Made by a program: the position numbers and the translations under genes
Notes under the pieces: model-generated
Seen by the model: only the letters and a program-made list of their open reading frames with translations
Database searches by the model: none
Told to the model about the DNA's origin: nothing
Shown here: in pieces, positions 3,505-22,278 of the stretch
How positions within the stretch are numbered: position 1 is the stretch's first letter
Layout of the letters: each line of letters opens with the position of its first letter
Virus record (IMG/VR): IMGVR_UViG_3300043778_000030
Span: 1-23,620 of that record
Source: a virus
Strand: one strand, 5' to 3'
Length of the DNA: 23,620 bases

Positions 3505-5583
3505 ATGGCGACCGCAGTCCCCACGCAACTCCCGCAGATCGCGCCCGCGCAACCCGCTGAGCCGCCGAAGCCGAAACTTTCCTACCGCGCGACTCGGGAC
3601 TTCGAGATGCGCTCTACGACGTTCGGCGAATCCGTCGATGAAGATATTTGCAAGTGGGTGTGGGAGCAGATCGACGTACGCCAGAAACAGCTTGAGAATC
3701 GGCACAAGCACAAAGTTCCCGAGTGGCGGAGGCTCGCGAGCGGCAAGCCGCGCGACGAAAATAAGAGTTGGCCGTTTGAGAACTGTTCAAACCTAGTACA
3801 CCCGATCATCGGAGAATCTTCTGATGAACTTTCCGCGCGCGTATTGCAGCTCATTTGGGCCACCGCCCCGATAATTAAATACAGCTACTTCATGCATACG
3901 AAGGAAGCGATCCAGGCGCATCTCAACGCAACAAAATCGCGTCTACTTGAACAGTTTATCGACTACGTGGCCTACGAGCCGAACGAACTCGACTTGTATC
4001 GCATAGAAAATTTATGGTTTCACGACAGCACCGACCTCGGAACCGCGTGGGTGTGCGTCGCGCCTGAGAAGCGCGTCGAAGCGATTCACATCGGCTATCG
4101 CGAGAAGAACGGGCGCAAGGGCGACGAGTTTGAAAACTCCGTGCTGTACGAAGGCCCGAAAGTAATCAACTTGCGCGACGAGGATGTCGGCTACGATCCC
4201 GACGCGAACACGCCAGAAGAGTCCACGATCATGTACCGGCGCTGCTCGCTCAACCGGCGCGACTTGCAAGAGCGCGTTTTCTTCGGGCACTACAAAAAAA
4301 CGCAAGTAGAAAAAATTCTCAACAAGCCTGACCGCTACGGGCCGGGCGAAGTGCGCAAACGGGAGAACGCGCGCAAGGGTGTCGTCGCGACCGAGGATCG
4401 CATTCTCGCGGAGTGGGATATTTTCGAGTGCTATTTTTACTGGTACGTGGGCAAGCGCAAATACCGGCTCATCGCGTGGTTCCACAAAGAAACAAAAACC
4501 ATGCTCAATCAGGTTTTCAACTTCATCCCTGAAAATCAGATTCCTCTGATTCGCACGCGACTCTCGCTTGGCGAACACGGCATGAACGGGCGGGGCTTCG
4601 CGGACATGGGCAGTTACTTCCAAGACGAAATCTCCACGGCGAAGAATATGCGCAACGACGCGACTACGTGGATGATGCTCGGACTAAATCGCCTGTCTCC
4701 GCATAATCGCAACATCGACAAGAACATGAAAGTGTTTCCCGGCGCGACACTCCCGTTCGGAACAGGTGAGTTTGAGCATTACGCAGTCGGCAATGTAGAT
4801 GCTGGTCAACTATCCATGCAGAACGAAGCGGCCATGATTCAGCAAGCGCGCGAGAGGTTCGGCGTCGGGCCTCCCGTTGGAGGCGCAGGTGCGGGCACGA
4901 CAAACAAGAAAGGCCAGTTCGGGAGCATGGGAACGATGGCGGTGTTGCAAGAGTCGAACTCGCGCAACAATCACCGCACATCGGACTTCCGGCATTCGCA
5001 CGTGAAGCTCATCGGACTTTTGACGGACATGTACGGGGCGCTCGGGCTCGGGCGCAAAGGCTCACTGTTCGGACTCGATGACAAACTTCTCGATGAGGCG
5101 CTATCGGATTTTCTGGAGCGCAAGGTGCGCATTCCGATTCGCGCGGCGACGGCGAGCGCGAACAAAGAAATCACGAAGCAAAACGAAATCCTGCTCAATC
5201 AGGCGCTCGACGGATACATCAAGGCCATGTCCAGCGCGATACAGGCGCTCGCGAACGAAGGACTGCCGCCGTATTACCGCAAGTGGCTCAGAGAACAAAC
5301 AATTGGTAAAGTGCATCTTATGCAACAGATAGTGAGGGACTTCCAACTCTCAGATAGTCCGACCGAATTTGTTCCGAACGTGGAATTTCCTCCAGACCAA
5401 CCGCCTCCGCAGCAACCGCCTCCGCAAAGGTCACAGCAGCCACCAAACCCTTCCGTTATGCCGATGCGCGGAGTACAATCTCCGGCAGTTCCCGCAACAC
5501 CGGGAGGTTCCCCGCAAGATGCTCTCGCGACTATTTTGGGACAAGGTGGACAAGGCGGGCCCGGTTCCGGCCCACAAGCCTGA
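3505..5583 (+). CDS. portal protein (SU10/P22-like)
   Basis: This is the dodecameric vertex channel through which DNA is packaged and released. From ATG 3505 it is 692 aa. The in-frame ATG at 3424 would overlap the terminase by 61 nt and add an unlikely N-terminus. Residues 89-100, WPFENCSNLVHP, match the conserved (W)PxxxxSN-hxxP block of SU10-like portals. Long alpha/beta core regions follow: YREKNGRKGDE, FNFIPENQIPLIRT, and a helical segment around QQARERFGVGPPVGGAG. The C-terminus is Pro/Gln-rich (PPPQQPPPQ), then Gly-rich. The gene follows terL directly. Its last 65 nt also encode the start of an HNH endonuclease, so the natural C-terminus may have been changed by that insertion. Confidence 0.85.
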   Translation: MATAVPTQLPQIAPAQPAEPPKPKLSYRATRDFEMRSTTFGESVDEDICKWVWEQIDVRQKQLENRHKHKVPEWRRLASGKPRDENKSWPFENCSNLVHPIIGESSDELSARVLQLIWATAPIIKYSYFMHTKEAIQAHLNATKSRLLEQFIDYVAYEPNELDLYRIENLWFHDSTDLGTAWVCVAPEKRVEAIHIGYREKNGRKGDEFENSVLYEGPKVINLRDEDVGYDPDANTPEESTIMYRRCSLNRRDLQERVFFGHYKKTQVEKILNKPDRYGPGEVRKRENARKGVVATEDRILAEWDIFECYFYWYVGKRKYRLIAWFHKETKTMLNQVFNFIPENQIPLIRTRLSLGEHGMNGRGFADMGSYFQDEISTAKNMRNDATTWMMLGLNRLSPHNRNIDKNMKVFPGATLPFGTGEFEHYAVGNVDAGQLSMQNEAAMIQQARERFGVGPPVGGAGAGTTNKKGQFGSMGTMAVLQESNSRNNHRTSDFRHSHVKLIGLLTDMYGALGLGRKGSLFGLDDKLLDEALSDFLERKVRIPIRAATASANKEITKQNEILLNQALDGYIKAMSSAIQALANEGLPPYYRKWLREQTIGKVHLMQQIVRDFQLSDSPTEFVPNVEFPPDQPPPQQPPPQRSQQPPNPSVMPMRGVQSPAVPATPGGSPQDALATILGQGGQGGPGSGPQA

Positions 5584-6139
5584 ACTGGGGCCGTGTTGGG
5601 TTTGGACCGGATGCAAGAACAAATTAGGCTACGGACGAATGGCTTTTTTCGTACGGAACGAACGACGCACGATTCACATCTTAGCCCACCGCTTCGCGTA
5701 CGTGTTTCTCATTGGCGAAATCCCTAATCAATTCCCCGACCTAGATCATCTCTGCTGGAATCCGTCATGTGTGAATCCCTCGCATTTAGAGCCAGTGACA
5801 CACCAAGTCAATTCGCAACGGGGCAAGACGGGCAGAAAACTCTATTGCAAGCGAGGGCATCCGTTGTCTGGTAAGAATCTGGTTCTGCGTCAAGGCTGGA
5901 GAGCGTGTAGAGAGTGCGAGAGAATGCGTGATCGCGAGAGGCTGGAATCACGCCAATGGCGCAACCTACCGTATCACAAGAGACTAAGAATGCGTTTCTT
6001 GCAGCGCATGAGGAGACAGCGTGCCCAAAAGAAGGCAGCAGCAACACGCGGACTCAGTTCGATGGCCGCAACTGTTCGCGAACACGGAAGTGGCCGACGC
6101 ACTTGTGCAGACCCCTGGCTTCCGTACGCTGCTAGCTGA
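5519..6139 (+). CDS. HNH homing endonuclease 1 (HNH_3 type)
   Basis: A 206-residue free-standing nuclease, read from ATG 5519 with GGGAGG at about 5502-5507. Residues 26-29, CWVW, start the core. LDHLCWNPSCVNPSHLEPV follows at 75-93, with H77, N86 and H89 as the HNH residues and C79/C84 as likely zinc ligands; N98 lies in HQVN. A second Cys cluster, CKRGHPLSGKN then CRECE (110-133), is typical of this family. The first 65 nt lie within the portal gene, and the last 119 nt overlap the next gene in another frame. The last 40 or so residues are therefore Arg-rich read-through without family character. It probably arrived as a mobile element. Confidence 0.85.
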   Translation: MLSRLFWDKVDKAGPVPAHKPELGPCWVWTGCKNKLGYGRMAFFVRNERRTIHILAHRFAYVFLIGEIPNQFPDLDHLCWNPSCVNPSHLEPVTHQVNSQRGKTGRKLYCKRGHPLSGKNLVLRQGWRACRECERMRDRERLESRQWRNLPYHKRLRMRFLQRMRRQRAQKKAAATRGLSSMAATVREHGSGRRTCADPWLPYAAS

Positions 6140-8426: not shown

Positions 8427-9392
8427 ATGGCACCCTTTGGTGTAATGTCTCGTAATAACTTTCCGCCACTATTGGCACCTGGGTTACGCCATATCTTCGT
8501 GGAATTCTTTGACCTCAAAGAGCACGCGCCACAGTACCCGCACTACATGAACGAGATGACGAGCGAGGATGCCTACGAGATTGACTACCAACTCTCGGGC
8601 ACCGGCCCCATGCCCTTGATGCCCGAAGGGACGCCGCCGATTACCGACTCGATGATTCAGGGCGGCACGAAAAAGTATCTGCATTTGCAGTACGGGCTTA
8701 TCTCGGAAGTCACGCGCCAACTCATCGCGGACGACAAGTACGGCATCGTGAAACAGATGCCCAAGTCGCACGCGCGCTCGGGGCTGTTCGGTCGCGAGGC
8801 CGTGTGCTGCTCGCTGTTCAATCTCGGCGGCACGCTCATCACCACGAACGACGGCGTAACGCTGTTCAACACGGCGCACCCATTGCTCGGCGGCACGCAA
8901 GCGACCGCAACCGCGCCGGGTATCACGAATATCATCTCGGCGGCGGGCACGTATCCGAACCGTCCGAATCCCGACACCGATCTTGGCGACACCGCGCTAC
9001 AGCAAGCGATTAACATCTTCGCGCGTATGCCCGATGGTCGCGGCATCCCGGTTCACGTGCACCCGCGTCATTTGATTCACCCGCCCGAACTTCGGCGCTT
9101 GACGCGCGAACTGCTTGGCTCTCCAGGCGTTCCGTTCAGCGCGAACAACGAGCTGAACTGGCTGCAAGCGGAAAACTTGCAAGGGCTGGAACTCAACTAC
9201 CTCACGTCAACAAGCGGGTGGGGACTAATCACTGAGAAGTCTGGACACCAAATGAAATTCTACGAACGCGAACCGCTCATGGCCGCGACCGACGACGACT
9301 TCAAGACGGAAGTTTTGCTGTTCAAATCTACGCAGCGTTTCAGTGCGGGAGCGACCGTCTGGCAAGGGACCTTTTTTTCGTACGGGCCGTAG
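8427..9392 (+). CDS. major capsid protein (Mu gpT-like, HK97 fold)
   Basis: The 321-residue protein would form the icosahedral head. The segment LFNTAHPLLGGTQA (about residues 147-160) matches the conserved loop LFxTxHP of Mu gpT-type and related HK97-fold capsid proteins. The regions before it (LISEVTRQLIADDKYGIVKQMPKS) and after it (ALQQAINIFARMPDGRGIPVHVHPRHLIHPPELRRLTRELLG) fit the same family. The ending SAGATVWQGTFFSYGP resembles other gpT-like C-termini. GGAGG lies 5 nt before ATG 8427. There is no obvious N-terminal propeptide or protease gene nearby. Confidence 0.8.
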   Translation: MAPFGVMSRNNFPPLLAPGLRHIFVEFFDLKEHAPQYPHYMNEMTSEDAYEIDYQLSGTGPMPLMPEGTPPITDSMIQGGTKKYLHLQYGLISEVTRQLIADDKYGIVKQMPKSHARSGLFGREAVCCSLFNLGGTLITTNDGVTLFNTAHPLLGGTQATATAPGITNIISAAGTYPNRPNPDTDLGDTALQQAINIFARMPDGRGIPVHVHPRHLIHPPELRRLTRELLGSPGVPFSANNELNWLQAENLQGLELNYLTSTSGWGLITEKSGHQMKFYEREPLMAATDDDFKTEVLLFKSTQRFSAGATVWQGTFFSYGP

Positions 9393-14397: not shown

Positions 14398-15222
14398 ATG
14401 CCACTAGCACAACCAGCGGCGGCAACGCTCACGATTAACGGCCTCATCAACAAAGTGGCCGCGTATCTGCAAAACCGCCCGGACGTGAGCGAGACGCAGA
14501 CAAACCCGGAGATGCGACCGAGCGCGTGGATTCGGGACACGATCCGCGAGTTAACGGCGAAGTGGCCTTTCCCTGAATTGCAAATTGCGGGACCTCTAAC
14601 GACCATCGGGCCGGGCTTGGGTTTTCAGGGTTCAAATTATATGTACCCGGTAAGCATGTTTCTCAATCCCGGCGATGACATGACTTCATCGGAAGACCCG
14701 ACGATTTTCCTGACGCCGCAAGACGCGCAAGCCGCTGCGATGCAGGGCGCAAATATTAGCAAGTTTGTTGGGACAGCGACGGGTACGGTAGCTTATCCGA
14801 TGGACCACTTAACGGTTAAGGCAATACAGCCGATGCTGTTCATACCCGGAGGCATCCCGTTTAGATATACACGCTTTGGTAATATGTATTGGTTTGGTAC
14901 GCAGCCGGGAACGAACTACAGCGTGTATCTGCCGTACAATAGACGGCACCCATTCAATCCCGATCTTGTCACATCGCCAATCTACATGCCACAGGATTGG
15001 TTCGACGTAATTGCAATAGGGGCGGCAGAGCGCGGGGCTGTAACGTTGCGTTGGTCAGACATGGCGAGCTATCTTCATCAACTACTCTATGGCGACCCTG
15101 ATTCGCAACAAAAAGATGGCTCGCTCGGGCGTCCGGGGTTGATCGCGGCTAGAGTGCTACAGCCAGAAAGGGATCGGCGGCTATCCACCGTGCAAATCTC
15201 GCCGATGGTGTCGCGTTACTAA
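14398..15222 (+). CDS. head-tail adaptor-like protein (P22 gp4 / T7 gp11 type)
   Basis: The 274-residue protein begins with LTINGLINKVAAYLQNRPDVSETQTNPEMRPSAWIRDTIRELTAKWPFPELQ. This helix-loop-helix, in which a short protein segment is followed by an Ile-Arg-Asp helix and a WPFPEL phrase, is typical of podovirus adaptor proteins that dock below the portal. The second half contains MYWFGTQPGTNYSVYLPYNRRHPF and QDWFDVIAIGAAERGAVTLRWSD, again seen in adaptors. The location fits the connector module. Its TAA shares a base with the ATG of the next HNH gene. Confidence 0.6.
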   Translation: MPLAQPAAATLTINGLINKVAAYLQNRPDVSETQTNPEMRPSAWIRDTIRELTAKWPFPELQIAGPLTTIGPGLGFQGSNYMYPVSMFLNPGDDMTSSEDPTIFLTPQDAQAAAMQGANISKFVGTATGTVAYPMDHLTVKAIQPMLFIPGGIPFRYTRFGNMYWFGTQPGTNYSVYLPYNRRHPFNPDLVTSPIYMPQDWFDVIAIGAAERGAVTLRWSDMASYLHQLLYGDPDSQQKDGSLGRPGLIAARVLQPERDRRLSTVQISPMVSRY

Positions 15223-15743
15223 TGGCTACCAGATGGGATAAGCTAACGCCGGAACAGCGATTCTGGTTGCACGTGGATAAGCGCGGACCTGATGAGTGCT
15301 GGGAGTGGACTGCGAGTTGCCAGCCGAAAGGCTACGGTGTATTCAATATTGGCGATGGCACATTGGTCCGTACCCATCGGTTTGCTTACGAATTGGTTCA
15401 CGGCCCCACGACTAAGTGGGTCCTGCATAAATGCGATAATCGTAAGTGCGTGAATGAGCGGCATCTTTTTGCCGGAACTCATCGCGAAAATATGAAAGAC
15501 ATGCGGGACAAGGGCCGGAGTGGCAAAAAACTTAACGAAATACAAGTCTCGCTGATTAAACTTTATATCACGAATGGTCGCAATCACCGCGAGATTGCCT
15601 CGCGCTTTGGCGTAAACAGGTCAGCGATCACGGCTATTGCGAATGGCAGGAATTTTCGAGATGTGAAAAAGTGGCGTTTTGGCGTCCGATTCACACCGGA
15701 AATGTGGAAGCTCGCGGGAGGTAGACTTGGCCTCGATACCTAA
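15222..15743 (+). CDS. HNH homing endonuclease 2 with C-terminal HTH
   Basis: A 173-residue nuclease. The core runs from CWEWTASCQPKGYGV (26-40), through the conserved HRFAYELVHGP (52-62), to VLHKCDNRKCVNERHLFAGTHRENMKD (67-93). Likely catalytic and metal residues are H69, C71, C76, N78, H81 and N90. A C-terminal helix-turn-helix (about 106-143, KLNEIQVSLIKLYI to VNRSAITAIANGR) should recognise the target site. The gene starts 1 nt inside the adaptor stop, and its last 17 nt cover the TTG start of the next gene. It therefore fits the junction with no spare DNA. Confidence 0.88.
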   Translation: MATRWDKLTPEQRFWLHVDKRGPDECWEWTASCQPKGYGVFNIGDGTLVRTHRFAYELVHGPTTKWVLHKCDNRKCVNERHLFAGTHRENMKDMRDKGRSGKKLNEIQVSLIKLYITNGRNHREIASRFGVNRSAITAIANGRNFRDVKKWRFGVRFTPEMWKLAGGRLGLDT

Positions 15744-16530: not shown

Positions 16531-18284
16531 GCGTAGACACGGGCACTCCTACAAGTTCGGTTCCAGGCGGGCTGCCGGGCGGCGCTGGCGGAGGCATTCC
16601 CGTCGCTACACCTCCCATTCTTCCGGGCGCGGCGGGCGGGACTCCCGATCCTTCCTCGCAAGTTTCGGAGATGACGAAGAAACTTCTCGCGACTCTCGCG
16701 CAAGCGGCGCAGCGTAAACAGTTCGCAGGCACGCCTGTACCGGGCGCGATCCCCGGCCAGCAAGACTCCGGGCGCAACATCGGCATGAACACCGCGAACC
16801 CCCACGGATGGGGATTGCAACGCTTCGCGGCGGGCATTAGCTCCTCGATTAAGAACGCGGTGTCGGCTGAGAAGCAAAAGAAACTCAACAAGGCAGAAGC
16901 GGACTGGACGTACCTGCAATCGGCACTGAATGAAAAGTACGCGGCTGACGCGAGCAAGGACCCGAAAGCAATCGCGGCGGCGCAGCAAAAAATCGACGTG
17001 GTGCTGACTGACCCGAAAAAACTCAAGGACCTCGCGAAAGCGCTGAATCAGGACTGGCTTTCGCCCGAGAAGACTACGGTTTATGGGGAGGCACTGAAAA
17101 AAGTTGCCGCTAAGACGAAGCAAGCGGAGCAACAAACCCAACAGTCCGACGCGCAGAAACAACAAGCTGCGCAAGGGCTAAAGGGGATGTTCCAAAAACT
17201 GCTCCAAAAAAATCAGCAACCGCAACTTACCGATGAGCAGAAAAAGCAGATGGGCGCGGAGATAGAAGCCAAGGCACCGACCACTACTCCCGGCTTGGAC
17301 CCGAAGCAGCTAGAGGCGCAAGAGAAAATTCTTCACGACCGCGCGACTGAGGCTCTCACTGCGGGGCGCGATGCGACCGCCGCTGCTTATAAAAAAGCAG
17401 CGCAATCACTCGCGGAAGTGAAGGTCGCGCAAGAAAAAGAAGAAAAAAGAATCGAGCAGGAGCGAAAGGATAAAGAACTTAAAATTAAGCAAGACGCGGA
17501 GGAAGAGAGGGTTCGCCACGATAAGGCGCTAGAGGCTAGGGCGCGGGCCGCCGCTGGCGAAGGTGCAGGCGGAGATGCGAAGGAAATCGCGGACGCCATC
17601 AAACGCGGCGACCAGCCGCCCACAATAACCGGGCTTTACAAAGTAGGCGCGGCGGTACGCGCTGAGTTGGCTCGTCAGGGTGTTCCACTCGCTAGAATGG
17701 AGCAGGACTGGAAGGCGACGGAGAAATACATGTCCACGCTCAACGGGCCGCAACAGACCCGCTTGCGCCAAGACATCTCCACCGTCAGCGATTCTCTCGA
17801 TAAAGTCGAAGGACTGTACGACGAATGGGAAACGCTCGCCCATGAGAGTGGCTATAGAAAAATAAACCACGCGACCTTGGAAGCAATGAAGCAATTGCCG
17901 GGACGCGCGGGAGCCGTAGCTCAGGCGCTTGAAGCGCAGATTGCCGATACGACTGCCGGTCTCGGAACGATCTACATGGGAGGGAACAGTCCTACCGATC
18001 ACTCGTTAGAGTTGGCCGGGCACAGCCTCAGTTCTGATTGGAACGATGAAACGTTTAGAGAGGGACTGAAGCAGGCCAAGGAGAACGTGAAGATTCGCAA
18101 CAATTCGATAGTTAATTCTAAGCCCGCTGGCGTGAGTACCGATTCGCCATACCTCCCTAAAAATGCTGGAGCGCCAGCAGCGGGCGGCGACATGGAAACG
18201 CAATCGTACAACGGAGCGACCTATCAACGAAAGAAAGGGTCGCAGGATCAGTGGACGCTCGCGCCAGCGGCTAAAGCACAATGA
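16527..18284 (+). CDS. putative coiled-coil internal virion protein, 585 aa
   Basis: The largest protein of the ejection block. Residues about 1-50 are Gly/Pro-rich. A long stretch with a high content of Lys, Glu, Gln and Ala (about 110-345, with KQAEQQTQQSDAQKQQAAQ and KEEKRIEQERKDKELKIKQDAEEERV) predicts extended coiled coils. A more globular helical part follows, about 365-530 (LYKVGAAVRAELARQGVPLARMEQDWKATEKYM, then LGTIYMGGNSPTDHSLELAGHSL). The C-terminus is YNGATYQRKKGSQDQWTLAPA, a short motif often found at the ends of phage structural proteins. There is no lytic transglycosylase signature. A DNA-ejection role is inference. Confidence 0.6.
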   Translation: MSVDTGTPTSSVPGGLPGGAGGGIPVATPPILPGAAGGTPDPSSQVSEMTKKLLATLAQAAQRKQFAGTPVPGAIPGQQDSGRNIGMNTANPHGWGLQRFAAGISSSIKNAVSAEKQKKLNKAEADWTYLQSALNEKYAADASKDPKAIAAAQQKIDVVLTDPKKLKDLAKALNQDWLSPEKTTVYGEALKKVAAKTKQAEQQTQQSDAQKQQAAQGLKGMFQKLLQKNQQPQLTDEQKKQMGAEIEAKAPTTTPGLDPKQLEAQEKILHDRATEALTAGRDATAAAYKKAAQSLAEVKVAQEKEEKRIEQERKDKELKIKQDAEEERVRHDKALEARARAAAGEGAGGDAKEIADAIKRGDQPPTITGLYKVGAAVRAELARQGVPLARMEQDWKATEKYMSTLNGPQQTRLRQDISTVSDSLDKVEGLYDEWETLAHESGYRKINHATLEAMKQLPGRAGAVAQALEAQIADTTAGLGTIYMGGNSPTDHSLELAGHSLSSDWNDETFREGLKQAKENVKIRNNSIVNSKPAGVSTDSPYLPKNAGAPAAGGDMETQSYNGATYQRKKGSQDQWTLAPAAKAQ

Positions 18285-18853
18285 GCGACACTCCTCCAGC
18301 GACGCTGCCGGCGAATTTCTTTGAAGGGAAAACGGGAACGGGACAGGCGACTCCACCGAAAACGCTTCCCGCGAATTTCGATTTCAAAAAAGGCGCGGCC
18401 CCGCCAGCCGATACGAGGGCAGAGCGCGGAGCAGAGCAAGCGACCGGACTGCGTGCGGCGAAGCCCATGTCCGTAGCTGAAATGGCCGATACGCCGTTTG
18501 TCAAAGACATGCTGGCGAAGAACGTTGGAGCGGGTGAGTTTGGCGCGGGAATGCTGGCCGGTGCCCCGATAGTGAAGGGAATTGCCGGGCTGTTCAAGCC
18601 AACTACAAGCGTGGTTCCTGTCGTTTCAAAGCTGCTAGACGCTCAAGGTAATCCCGCAGTTCGGGAAGTGGAGGAGGTTGGGGCGAGTGCCGCTGGCCGC
18701 GCGGCAGGGCTGACTAAAGAGGGAATCAAGAATATCCTTAAGTGGATGAACAATCACAAAGTCGAATCGTATGTGATGTTTAAGACGGCAGAACAATTAG
18801 GCTTGGCTCCCGCGAAGGCGGTGAAGATGCTTCACGTTGCGTCGGGCGAGTAG
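18281..18853 (+). CDS. hypothetical virion protein with TLPANF repeat, 190 aa
   Basis: This gene is ATGA-coupled to the coiled-coil gene and so probably belongs to the same virion module. A motif TPPxTLPANF occurs twice near the N-terminus (about residues 3-12 and 24-33). A Gly/Ala-rich segment at about 90-110 (VGAGEFGAGMLAGAPIVKGIAGLF) could be amphipathic or membrane-active. The C-terminus is helical (LTKEGIKNILKWMNNHKVESYVMFKTAEQLGLAPAKAVKMLHVASG). Its final 74 nt overlap, antisense, the minus-strand gene at 18780. Confidence 0.6.
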   Translation: MSDTPPATLPANFFEGKTGTGQATPPKTLPANFDFKKGAAPPADTRAERGAEQATGLRAAKPMSVAEMADTPFVKDMLAKNVGAGEFGAGMLAGAPIVKGIAGLFKPTTSVVPVVSKLLDAQGNPAVREVEEVGASAAGRAAGLTKEGIKNILKWMNNHKVESYVMFKTAEQLGLAPAKAVKMLHVASGE

Positions 18854-19001
18854 GCTTAAAAAACCAATACACGACCCCAACGGCGAGGGCGTCAAGTAGA
18901 GTCGGCTCGTGATGGAAAAACTCGACGCACAAAAAGTCGATGCAAGTTCCAGCGATGGCGATGAAGATGAAACCAAACACCAGAGTCAGCATGGTTTTCA
19001 C
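18780..19001 (-). CDS. small membrane protein, 73 aa (minus-strand cassette, gene 3)
   Basis: Read on the minus strand from GTG 19001, which has AGAGAGG about 6 nt upstream. The next in-frame ATG (three codons on) is an alternative. Two hydrophobic segments are clear: LTLVFGFIFIAIAGTCIDFL (about 5-24) and LLDALAVGVVYWFF (about 35-48). A basic, Pro/Ser-rich tail follows. Size and topology resemble two-span holins, but nothing proves lysis function. The tail overlaps the 3' end of the plus-strand gene by 74 nt. It lies downstream of two other minus-strand genes, 49 nt after the stop of the second. Confidence 0.6.
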   Translation of the reverse strand: MKTMLTLVFGFIFIAIAGTCIDFLCVEFFHHEPTLLDALAVGVVYWFFKPTRPTQREASSPPSREPSLIVLPS

Positions 19002-19050
19002 GGTACCCTCTCTTTCAGGAGATGCAATGATGCAAACGCGACGCAACGAC

Positions 19051-19320
19051 CTACTGGACCGACTGTGCTTCTGGATTCTGACCCGCAGACGACGTAATAG
19101 TGTATCCAAGGTCACGCATCAGTTGGACCGTGCGCCACGCGGCCTGACCAAAGAACACGCGACAGCCCAAAAAGGTACAATCTACATGGGTGAAGTCACC
19201 GCCGTAATACTCAAGTCCACAACCATCGAAGAAGCACGAGAAAAATAGCTTACCGTCGAGCAACACCAAATCAGTTGGCCCGAACCTTCGCCCTCTGATG
19301 ACCTCTTGCGCTTCGCTCAC
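19051..19320 (-). CDS. Cys-patterned beta-helix-like protein, 89 aa (minus-strand cassette, gene 2)
   Basis: The GTG start at 19320 overlaps the preceding minus-strand stop as GTGA. Residues about 12-62 have a repeating pattern: LVLLDGKLFFSCFFDGCGLEYYGG, then FTHVDCTFLGCRVFF, with Cys at 29, 34, 48 and 53. It ends in GQAAWRTVQLMRDLGY. Aromatic or hydrophobic residues alternate with small turns as in pentapeptide-like right-handed beta-helices. Comparable short bacterial proteins of unknown function end in an AAxxTxxxL helix. There is no secretion signal. This is the most conserved-looking member of the trio. Confidence 0.65.
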   Translation of the reverse strand: MSEAQEVIRGRRFGPTDLVLLDGKLFFSCFFDGCGLEYYGGDFTHVDCTFLGCRVFFGQAAWRTVQLMRDLGYTITSSAGQNPEAQSVQ

Positions 19321-19469
19321 CGAAGTTTCCAAGTGTGAACGTCCGGCAAGGCGTCCGTGGGTTGCGCGACAGGCGGCTTCGCGCGAAACACGAACAGCAT
19401 GAAGTACGCGCCGGTCGTGAGCGACGCGGCGAAGATCAGTGCTGACGGGATGAATAAGATGTTTTCCAT
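19317..19469 (-). CDS. tiny membrane protein, 50 aa (minus-strand cassette, gene 1)
   Basis: The minus-strand ATG at 19469 opens a 50-residue protein. Its N-terminus, ENILFIPSALIFAASLTTGAYFMLFVF (residues 2-28), is one membrane-spanning helix. It is followed by a short polar tail (RAKPPVAQPTDALPDVHTWKLR), probably periplasmic or cytoplasmic. The stop overlaps the GTG of the next minus-strand gene, which is strong evidence for translation coupling. No clear Shine-Dalgarno sequence is visible. TACCAT on the minus strand (19508-19503) could be part of a divergent promoter. The function is unknown. Confidence 0.55.
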   Translation of the reverse strand: MENILFIPSALIFAASLTTGAYFMLFVFRAKPPVAQPTDALPDVHTWKLR

Positions 19470-19524
19470 GCACCAAGGATGCGCCCGCGCCTCGCGCGCG
19501 ACAATGGTACTTCCGGTCCCTGTC

Positions 19525-19542
19525 CTGTGGTACAGTACCCGT
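19525..19542 (+). promoter_or_regulatory. promoter-like site between divergent genes (P3)
   Basis: CTGTGG-TACAGT (19525-19536) matches the shared YTG-N-S-S-TAY-N-N-T pattern, and TG-G-TACAGT also fits an extended -10. It includes the odd palindrome GGTACAGTACC (19529-19539), with another GGTAC at 19506-19510. A start near 19543 gives a short leader carrying GGGAGG before ATG 19560. The palindrome could be an operator. Confidence 0.45.
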
Positions 19543-19559
19543 GCCTAGGGAGGCGTCCC

Positions 19560-19766
19560 ATGATCTTCGCGAAAAAGCCCGAATCGCCCACGCAGGCGCT
19601 TAGCAACGCGGGACCCGACGAACTATTAGAGGGAAAGCAGGAAGGCGAGATGGGGCAGCGCACGCGCCGTCCGATGCAGAACACGGGAACTTGGGGTGAC
19701 ACTCAGTATCCTGGCTGCACGCATACGACTGACCCGAAGGCTCCGAAACTCACCAAGTCCATGTGA
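19560..19766 (+). CDS. hypothetical protein, 68 aa
   Basis: The start is ATG 19560 with GGGAGG 6 nt upstream; an earlier ATG in frame at 19479 has no ribosome binding site. The protein is hydrophilic and probably disordered (KKPESPTQALSNAGPDELLEGKQEGEMGQRTRRPMQ, then TWGDTQYPGCTHTTDPKAPK). One Cys-x-His pair is not enough for a metal site. It follows a promoter-like site and leads the second plus-strand block. Its end overlaps the HNH gene as GTGA. Function unknown. Confidence 0.65.
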   Translation: MIFAKKPESPTQALSNAGPDELLEGKQEGEMGQRTRRPMQNTGTWGDTQYPGCTHTTDPKAPKLTKSM

Positions 19767-20281
19767 CCAAGCGGCTACCTAGATTCTGCCTAGCATGCAA
19801 TGCCCCGTATCGTTCCACAGGAAGGGGGCAAAAATTCTGCTCGTTGCTGTGTCGGGTTTTGTGGAATATCGACGTTCGCGGCACTGACGACTGTTGGCCG
19901 TGGATGTCAGCGCGCAACAAGGACGGTTACGGCGTCACCGGCGATAATAAACTAGCGCATAGATTCATCTGCGAACTATTCCACGGTCCAATGACGAAAA
20001 CGCAGAACGCCTGCCACTCGTGCGACAATCCCCCATGCTGCAACCCCGCGCATCTCTGGCCCGGAACAAATCTACAGAACCATCAAGATTCCGCCGCGAA
20101 GCGTCGCTCTACTTACGGAGAGAAAAATCCCGGCGCTAAATTGAATGAGAAGCAAGTTAGAATCATCAAGAGCATGTCCTTTGAAATTTTTACCTTCTCG
20201 GAGATTGCGGAACTTTTGCATTGCAAGTGTGGTACGGTTGGTCGTATTGTTAGTGGCCAGCAGTGGAAGCACGTAGAGTGA
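19763..20281 (+). CDS. HNH homing endonuclease 3 with zinc ribbon and HTH
   Basis: The start is GTG 19763, overlapping the preceding TGA as GTGA. The 172 residues contain three parts. First is an N-terminal zinc ribbon (C9, C12, C26, C30). Second is the HNH core from CWPWMSARNKDGYGV (44-58) to ACHSCDNPPCCNPAHLWPGTNLQN (83-106), with H85, C87, C92, N94, H97 and N106. Third is a C-terminal region GEKNPGAKLNEKQVRIIKSM (119-138) leading into a helix-turn-helix (about 140-166). This is the standard form of HNH_3 homing nucleases with an added DNA-binding head. It separates two small genes of the same block. Confidence 0.88.
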   Translation: MTKRLPRFCLACNAPYRSTGRGQKFCSLLCRVLWNIDVRGTDDCWPWMSARNKDGYGVTGDNKLAHRFICELFHGPMTKTQNACHSCDNPPCCNPAHLWPGTNLQNHQDSAAKRRSTYGEKNPGAKLNEKQVRIIKSMSFEIFTFSEIAELLHCKCGTVGRIVSGQQWKHVE

Positions 20282-20293
20282 AGGAGACAACAA

Positions 20294-20536
20294 ATGTCAT
20301 TCCTGGGGTCAAAAGAGGACGCACGCAAGTACGCGATGGAAGCGGACAAGCAGCTAGACGACCTAATGACGACTTCGCCAGTCGGCGCGGGCGGCAGCAT
20401 GGAAGCGGGCGCGGCACCCATGTCCGGGAAGAGCGAGTTCAGTAACGAGAGAACCCGTACAAAACAAGTAGGAAACATGGGAGCGATGCGCCGCGAGTTT
20501 CCGTCCGAGGGAGTAGGTCAGAAGTCCGGCCTGTAA
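20294..20536 (+). CDS. hypothetical protein, 80 aa
   Basis: ATG 20294 has a clear AAGGAG upstream. The protein is polar and lacks Cys (FLGSKEDARKYAMEADKQLDDLM, then VGAGGSMEAGAAPMSGKSEFSNERTRTKQ). One N-terminal amphipathic helix is likely, and the rest appears disordered. It resembles the 68-residue protein at 19560 in composition but not in sequence. It stands directly before the ATP-grasp gene, and its function is not known. Confidence 0.65.
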   Translation: MSFLGSKEDARKYAMEADKQLDDLMTTSPVGAGGSMEAGAAPMSGKSEFSNERTRTKQVGNMGAMRREFPSEGVGQKSGL

Positions 20537-20543
20537 ATTCCCC

Positions 20544-21818
20544 GTGCGGATCTGCGTCGCGAGTCTCTACGGCGAGGGCCTTTGGTTCGCGCAGCGCATG
20601 GCGACCGAAGGCCACGACGTTTCTGCGATAGTCAGCGACGCGCGTTTCGAGCAAGTGCTTGGCGGCATGGTAAAAGTCATGCCGGGTCGCGAAGTTTATA
20701 CCGCTGCTGAATATGACTGCGTAGTCTTCGATACAACCGGCATGGGCAAAGATGCCGATGCCGCCCGCCTTGAAACTCCCACGATTGGCGACTCGACGCT
20801 GGCCGACGCGCTCGAAGAGGACCGCGAGTTCTCACTCGACTTCATGCAGAAGTGCGGCATCCAAGTCGCGCCGTGGGAAGTGTTCGACAATCCCGCCGAT
20901 GCGATTCGCCACATCAAGAAAACAAAAAAGCGTTATGTGTTTAAGCCGATAGGCGATCAGGACGACAAATCCACGACGTACGTCTCGCGCTCGGCGGAAG
21001 ACTTGCTCCACTATTTCGATGTGCTCTTTCGCTCCGCGAAGGTGAGCAAGTTTGTCCTGCAAGAGTTTGTCGCGGGCACGGAAGTTTCCACACAGGCGTA
21101 CATAAACGAGGCGGGATATTTCGCGCTGAATCACACACTCGAAACGAAAAAACTGATGAACGGCGATGTGGGACCGAACACGGGATGCTCGGGCTCGCTC
21201 GCGTGGCTCGCGGAAGACGACGTGCTTTTCGCGAAAGGATTGAAGCGCGCGATAGGTCCGCTGCAAGAGTTAGGCTACGTCGGGCCGATTGACCTCAACA
21301 CCATCGTGAACGCGGAGGGAGTGTGGGGCTTAGAATTTTGCCCACGCTTCGGCTATGACAGCGACGCGCTGCTCATGCGTTTGCTCGGCGTGAATTGGGG
21401 AGACTTCCTGTACGCAATCGCGACCGACCGACGCCCGCAAGAGATTATTCAGCGGCATTCGTTCTGCGCGTCGGTGCGCTTGAGTGTGCCGCCCTACCCG
21501 TGCGAGGGCCTGCCAGAAAAATTCTACAAAGCAGGCATCCCGATTGAGTGCCTGACGGAGAAAAACTTCGACCGCTTTTTTGTGTACGATGTGCGGCGTC
21601 GCGCGGAAGATGCGGACGACCTCGAAACGGCGGGCATCTGCGGTTGGATTGGCTCACCGCTCGCCGTAGGTGAAACTCTCGGGCAGGCATTCGAGGGAGC
21701 GTACGGGATGCTCAAAGAAGTGCAAGTTCCGAACGCTCAATATAGAACAGACGTTGCGGCGAACACGGCCAAGCGATATTCTCAGCTGCGCGAGGGCGGT
21801 TGGCTCATCGGTGCCTGA
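20544..21818 (+). CDS. PurD-like ATP-grasp ligase of unknown substrate
   Basis: An ATP-grasp enzyme of 424 residues, starting at GTG 20544. ATP-binding elements include YVFKPIGDQDDKSTTYV (131-147, K134) and LQEFVAGTEVSTQAY (172-186). GDVGPNTGCSGS (208-218) matches the D-x-GPNTGGMG loop of phosphoribosylamine-glycine ligase. GYVGPIDLN and WGLEFCPRFG (244-270) match the PurD metal-site region, but the Asn after EF is Cys here. The PurD N-terminal GGREHAL motif is missing; residues 8-18 read LYGEGLWFAQR. So the substrate is probably not phosphoribosylamine. It likely joins a carboxylate to an amine at the cost of ATP. No other purine genes lie nearby. Confidence 0.75.
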   Translation: MRICVASLYGEGLWFAQRMATEGHDVSAIVSDARFEQVLGGMVKVMPGREVYTAAEYDCVVFDTTGMGKDADAARLETPTIGDSTLADALEEDREFSLDFMQKCGIQVAPWEVFDNPADAIRHIKKTKKRYVFKPIGDQDDKSTTYVSRSAEDLLHYFDVLFRSAKVSKFVLQEFVAGTEVSTQAYINEAGYFALNHTLETKKLMNGDVGPNTGCSGSLAWLAEDDVLFAKGLKRAIGPLQELGYVGPIDLNTIVNAEGVWGLEFCPRFGYDSDALLMRLLGVNWGDFLYAIATDRRPQEIIQRHSFCASVRLSVPPYPCEGLPEKFYKAGIPIECLTEKNFDRFFVYDVRRRAEDADDLETAGICGWIGSPLAVGETLGQAFEGAYGMLKEVQVPNAQYRTDVAANTAKRYSQLREGGWLIGA

Positions 21819-21819
21819 A

Positions 21820-22278
21820 ATGAATTCTGGTTTCTGTCAGTGCGGGTGCGGCGGGCGAACGAAAGTCTCGGCTTATTCGAGTGCGCCGAAAGGCTACGTC
21901 AGAGGCCAACCTCGCCGATTCATCGTCGGTCACACGTTCAAGGGGACGCAGTACGAACGCTGTCCAATCGATATTCGTTTTTGGAAGTATGTGTACAAAA
22001 CGGCGTCATGTTGGTTCTGGACTGGCGCGAGCAATTCAAACGGTTCATTCGACCGTGGGATAATCCTTCACGAAAAGCGTTATCAGTTTGCCCATCGCGT
22101 CTCGTGGCAACTCCATCGTGGGCCGATTCCCGAAGGCATGAAGGTTCTGCACACTTGCGACAACGGGCTTTGCGTCAACCCGGAGCATCTATTTCTAGGA
22201 ACCCAGAAAAAGAACATTCAAGACGCATGGGCCAAGGGGAGAATGAGAAGAGAAAACTTGGTACAGTTCCGCGCATGA
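21820..22278 (+). CDS. HNH homing endonuclease 4 with N-terminal Cys cluster
   Basis: A 152-residue nuclease starting at ATG 21820; GTG 21811, nine nt upstream, is an alternative. Residues 6-13, CQCGCGGR, and RRFIVGH (32-38) form the small zinc-binding head found in many phage HNH proteins. The core runs from CWFWTG (64-69) through AHRVSWQLHRGP to VLHTCDNGLCVNPEHLFLGTQKKNIQD (109-135), with H111, C113, C118, N120, H123 and N132. It starts 1 nt after the ATP-grasp stop and ends in an ATGA overlap with the acidic small gene. Like the others it occupies a gene junction exactly. Confidence 0.87.
   Translation: MNSGFCQCGCGGRTKVSAYSSAPKGYVRGQPRRFIVGHTFKGTQYERCPIDIRFWKYVYKTASCWFWTGASNSNGSFDRGIILHEKRYQFAHRVSWQLHRGPIPEGMKVLHTCDNGLCVNPEHLFLGTQKKNIQDAWAKGRMRRENLVQFRA

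Follow-up and report, generated by a model that had tools for sequence, protein, structure and literature searches.

An optional reverse-strand cassette in a group of related phages combines a constant small membrane protein with an exchangeable slot and is a tentative candidate for superinfection exclusion

The only reverse-strand gene block in a 23.6-kb phage record appears to be an optional accessory ("moron") cassette with an exchangeable cytosolic slot, and superinfection exclusion is the function that we tentatively regard as the most likely. On its plus strand the window (the whole 23,620-nucleotide stretch of DNA that was analysed) encodes terminase, portal, major capsid protein and further virion components; the minus strand has three short genes, g1, g2 and g3 (Table 1). 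The block was compared with eight related IMG/VR viral contigs found by scanning viral contigs twice with a single protein and twice with an alignment, giving nine contigs with the window (W): A (L002/L008), B (L003/L007, 46 kb), C (L004/L012), D (L005), E (L006), F (L009, 48 kb), G (L010, 47 kb) and H (L011).

Table 1. Positions and contents of the reverse-strand block, its surroundings and the corresponding features of related contigs
Feature	Genome	Position	Strand	Description
g1	W	19469-19317	minus	50 aa, one-helix membrane protein, constant cassette member
g2	W	19320-19051	minus	89 aa, GTG start, Cys-patterned pentapeptide-like beta protein, variable slot
g3	W	19001-18780	minus	73 aa, two hydrophobic stretches (helical hairpin)
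Left neighbour	W	18281-18853	plus	190 aa, no assigned function, end overlaps g3
Right neighbour	W	19560-19766	plus	68 aa, present only in block-bearing genomes
Intergenic region between g1 and the plus gene at 19560	W	19470-19559	divergent	GGTAC motifs within
Island shared with A	W	18593-19036 (445 bp; L002 ~14422-14864)		89% identical DNA, surroundings 67-75%
Block	W		minus	g1, beta protein, hairpin
Block	A		minus	g1, helical protein, hairpin
Block	D		minus	g1, helical protein, hairpin
Block	B		minus	g1 and a 31-45-aa membrane protein, no slot protein
Block	C		minus	g1 and a 54-aa hairpin, no slot protein
Lysozyme-like gene	B	35878-36261		PHROG endolysin match E 2.5e-7; tape-measure family match better
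One-helix protein gene	B	34294-34566		90 aa
Three-helix protein gene	B	33866-34297		143 aa

The anatomy of the block largely bears out a preliminary description made from the window alone. All three minus-strand reading frames were found where it had placed them, and every other clearly coding frame is on the plus strand. It had also noted the single helix of g1, the overlap of g1 with g2 and a cysteine pattern in the middle protein, which proved to consist of C29, C34, C48 and C53. The stop codon of g1 and the GTG start of g2 overlap as GTGA, and g2 is, as judged from this junction, translationally coupled to g1. g3 also starts with GTG, preceded by GAGAGGG, and lies tail-to-tail with the left-hand plus gene, with a 74-base antisense overlap at that gene's end. 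The GC content of the block (0.55) equals that of the window, so there is no compositional sign of foreign origin; divergent base composition is common in phage morons, yet not required of them. No consensus promoter or terminator was called for the opposite-strand block by a simple scan. The divergent intergenic region on its right, whose GGTAC motifs offer no more than a lead to a promoter, contains at 19500-19545 the element TGGTACTT, a possible promoter or operator that W, A (L002) and B (L007) have in similar form; in C and D this region carries other GTAC-containing sites.

The substitution pattern indicates that purifying selection acts on the g1 and g3 proteins. Compared with relative A, g3 outside the overlap has eight synonymous and two nonsynonymous changes (pN/pS 0.07), and g1 compared with relative D has a pN/pS of 0.18, ratios that are rough because few changes were counted. 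Four of the other five frames gave ratios of 0.9-5 or had no synonymous changes, and one antisense frame, at 0.33-0.34, still exceeds the coding-frame ratio. The preliminary description of g3 as a two-helix protein antisense to a plus gene end holds for the hairpin and for the overlap itself, but not for the whole length of the protein: where the two genes overlap, constraint is seen on the plus gene (pN/pS 0.05) but not on the last 24 residues of g3 (2.6), so that the functional, selected part of g3 is the hairpin. Hydropathy and charge suggest an N-out/C-in topology for g1, following the positive-inside rule, and N-in/C-in for g3.

The block lies at exactly the same site in five of the nine contigs (W and A to D), whereas E, F, G and H have neither the block nor the 68-aa right-hand plus gene. 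Presence and absence among close relatives at one site, opposite-strand orientation and exchangeable content together uphold the earlier suggestion of an accessory (moron) cassette. g1 belongs to one family in all five block-bearing genomes, as established by leave-one-out profiles, in which each true copy outranked all unrelated reading frames of the nine contigs (E 9e-17 for W, 6e-14 for D, 3e-6 for A and B, and 1e-3 for C). In each of these genomes g1 is accompanied by a downstream second small membrane gene, and the GTGA overlap between g1 and the next gene recurs in A, with a similarly close junction in D. A search for further block-bearing genomes through the right-hand neighbour recovered only the four already known, and g1, g3 and the helical slot protein had no matches in phage records. 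The membrane genes belong to no known family, which also speaks for an accessory cassette.

Several other features of this phage group deserve mention in their own right. The major capsid protein of W (window 8427-9392) shares 93-97% identity with its counterparts in A, B, C and D, although neighbouring genes are at about 50-80%. HNH endonuclease-like genes are dispersed among the virion genes (window 5369-6139, 15222-15743, 19763-20281 and 21670-22278) and their positions differ between the relatives; D carries one (L005 ~14650-15125, plus strand) within the divergent region between g1 and the right neighbour. Window 20544-21818 encodes an ATP-grasp ligase of the GARS type (Pfam GARS_A, E 2.7e-16), which all eight related contigs share at 62-81% identity. 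A conserved 80-aa gene (20294-20536) lies nearby. For a phage-encoded ATP-grasp enzyme, conservation this strong is unusual.

Between g1 and the second membrane gene, the content of the block varies. A and D encode helical slot proteins that share homology (32% over 74 aa, E 8e-11) and are unrelated to the beta protein g2 of W, and two genomes have nothing in this slot. g3 is common to W and A only, the A copy being 88% identical; shuffles and profiles did not show it to be homologous with the second membrane genes that B, C and D carry, and these are therefore analogues at best. The island shared with A takes in the plus gene's C-terminal part, g3 and the g3 ribosome-binding region, and ends just past the g3 start. 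Its identity, well above the background, shows a recent exchange of g3 along with the plus gene end. Since g1 of W is closest to that of D and g3 is closest to that of A, the parts of the cassette have separate histories. With a constant g1, a swapped middle slot and g3 in one relative only, there is no fixed trio. The earlier picture of three proteins forming one complex around a beta-helix protein was accordingly not sustained: only one of the five genomes with a block encodes the beta protein, g1 is the constant, and the three genes were never found together as a set elsewhere, although g1 together with a second small membrane gene was found every time.

These separate histories could also mean that unrelated small accessory genes have simply gathered where a tolerant site separates two transcription units, and do not work together. 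That g2 has a lineage of its own, and that the beta protein stands alone in five of the eight places examined, would fit such a collection of passengers. Yet the starts and stops overlap, the gene order is fixed in five genomes, and g1 never occurs without a second small membrane gene downstream; we consider chance gathering unlikely.

The beta protein g2 belongs to a scattered family. It matches PHROG 26297, whose function is unknown (E 4.8e-7, residues 16-71), and has no Pfam pentapeptide match above the cut-off; for a Pseudomonadota relative that match has an E-value of 0.004, below the cut-off. Direct searches of viral contigs, genomes and phage records with g2 found no relatives, and these were reached only by way of an acidobacterial plasmid match. 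The family is present in two Granulicella plasmids, the prophage-like contig L040, Elizabethkingia phage EKP1 and a Vibrio phage; a sample of 399 Pseudomonadota genomes added two genomes and a further, marginal match. The census is small, and its genome sample consists of Pseudomonadota only. The plasmid relatives hint that the host of the window phage may belong to the Acidobacteriota. Both Granulicella tundricola plasmid copies (L013 2962-3222 and L014 ~1968-2243) are missing from the plasmid gene tables, and at one of the two an opposite-strand gene is annotated instead. A gammaproteobacterial match (L015) was discarded as a false positive, as its reading frame looks like that of a phosphoesterase.

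Structure prediction for g2 reached a pLDDT of 39 from the single sequence and 51 with one relative; the low-confidence model, with short strand pairs and one helix, is consistent with a short solenoid bearing a helix cap. Metal binding by the four cysteines was set aside as a general trait, and is unlikely to be one, because the L040 and Vibrio phage copies are without most of them. Membrane partners of the 89-residue protein, which the preliminary description had made a point of interest, were found in part. A membrane gene lies directly beside the family gene in three of eight places, namely W, EKP1 and L040 (in the last with an 11-base overlap with a one-helix protein gene), but no membrane gene adjoins the Vibrio phage copy, the two plasmid copies or the two chromosomal copies. 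The pairing thus recurs without being obligatory.

The slot protein could instead serve counter-defence or host takeover, inhibiting a host defence or enzyme at the membrane, to which g1 and g3 would anchor it, and the slot would be swapped to match host defences. The exchange of the slot while g1 remains would suit this idea, as would the family profile, for which McbG-like/Qnr pentapeptide proteins are among the best solved matches, with weak scores (E 0.03-0.07). Pentapeptide-type proteins such as Qnr, MfpA and McbG can act on gyrase as DNA mimics. Against it, g2 has only a few coils and is far shorter than the DNA-mimic pentapeptide proteins, two relatives are without any slot protein, and PADLOC gave no match, so that we assign this possibility a low probability.

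A role in lysis, raised in the preliminary description as an unusual lysis set, was rejected as the main reading. In B, an endolysin-like gene and several membrane genes, including a 67-aa hairpin reading frame, form a separate cluster ~11-13 kb from the block, with the endolysin-like gene itself ~13 kb away, and the block is therefore unlikely to be a lysis set. Within this cluster only the lysozyme-like gene is backed by a family match, and the holin and spanin roles of the membrane genes are guesses from anatomy; the 90-aa one-helix gene also occurs in D. Another version is a lysis timing module, in which g3 would be a second holin or antiholin and g1 its modulator, with endolysin and spanin encoded elsewhere; small membrane genes near late genes are frequently lysis genes. 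In size and topology, g3 and the analogues from C and D correspond to class II holins, but an N-in/C-in hairpin is common to many other small membrane proteins. We find this version doubtful as well, given the separate cluster in B, and given that the block contains no endolysin gene and, by inspection, no lipobox for a spanin, that g1, g2 and g3 have no PHROG lysis family match, that the slot proteins are not lysis-like and that four relatives are missing the block altogether.

Superinfection exclusion remains the reading that we put first, if tentatively. It draws on the fixed optional site, the g1 homology across all five genomes, purifying selection, close junctions, the slot swap and recent exchange of the g3 island, the lysis-like genes located elsewhere in B, the missing integrase, and the adjacency of the beta protein to a membrane gene in EKP1 and the prophage. 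No integrase family match was found in the nine contigs, while 14 of 14 control genomes gave matches; most of the contigs are fragments, so misses are possible, and three are 46-48 kb long. This result favours a function during infection over a function in the lysogen. Searches of Pfam, PHROGs, NCBIfam, PADLOC and phage records matched no member of the cassette to a known exclusion protein. This counts against the reading, as do the genome-like GC content of the block and the lack of a called promoter or terminator.

In the mechanism that we propose, the cassette would be an optional insertion among the late genes of a group of soil phages that look lytic, transcribed from the opposite strand. 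The constant single-helix g1 is encoded along with a second small membrane protein (here g3), with a slot for a soluble protein between them that can be exchanged or omitted. g1 and g3 would be inner-membrane proteins of the infected cell, and the slot protein would bind to their cytosolic ends. The assembly may then alter the envelope during infection, such that further phages of the group fail to deliver their DNA. That relatives swap these parts is in keeping with an arms race among competing phages. A broader principle, which we consider quite unlikely, is that of a modular membrane platform: g1 would act as a dock, varied cytosolic effectors (beta-solenoid or helical) would be plugged into the coupled slot according to host or rival, and where unrelated phages and prophages pair the beta family with small membrane proteins, the same principle would apply.

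If the exclusion function is true, uncultivated soil phages carry a compact modular membrane cassette of one fixed and two exchangeable parts, and it occurs in phages without sign of lysogeny. Its site would be a defined genomic location for collecting and testing such cassettes. The family of ~89-residue beta proteins would likewise gain a testable setting, with three of eight copies coupled to a small membrane gene.

Comparison with known systems yields partial likenesses. The 85-97-aa pentapeptide-like proteins of PHROG 26297 share the length of g2, and its C-x4-C ... C-x4-C spacing recurs in the EKP1 copy and one Pseudomonadota copy; however, members are usually not beside g1- or g3-like genes, and the cysteines are not kept in all. 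In EKP1, a 103-aa two-helix protein overlaps through ATGA with the 89-aa g2-family protein (UKL15134.1-UKL15135.1; L042 2190-2767; EKP1 35936-36513), and this pair of a membrane gene and a beta gene, located after the lysis genes, resembles the arrangement described here. By inspection its membrane protein is unrelated in sequence, there is no g1, and phage EKP1 has an integrase. Holin/spanin cassettes share a small hairpin membrane protein in the late region, but the block has no spanin features, and endolysin-like and other membrane genes lie elsewhere in B.

HalA of the Hailong system, whose architecture we viewed in a HalA-like protein (L043), combines a pentapeptide-like stretch with membrane helices, and the EKP1 beta protein is a weak profile match (E 0.012). 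The HalA profile weakly matches in 103 of 399 genomes, mostly over the pentapeptide part. g2 has no NCBIfam match, and no nucleotidyltransferase occurs among the scanned neighbours. Identity with Hailong was rejected: the match concerns the generic pentapeptide part only, and the cassette has neither the HalB nucleotidyltransferase nor a channel domain. T4 Imm and P22 SieA are superinfection exclusion systems built on small membrane proteins. The likeness, drawn solely at the level of how such a system would work, lies in short inner-membrane proteins encoded in an extra gene set of a tailed phage; there is no sequence match, and the cassette described here differs in that a hairpin protein and an exchangeable soluble slot accompany a constant one-helix protein.
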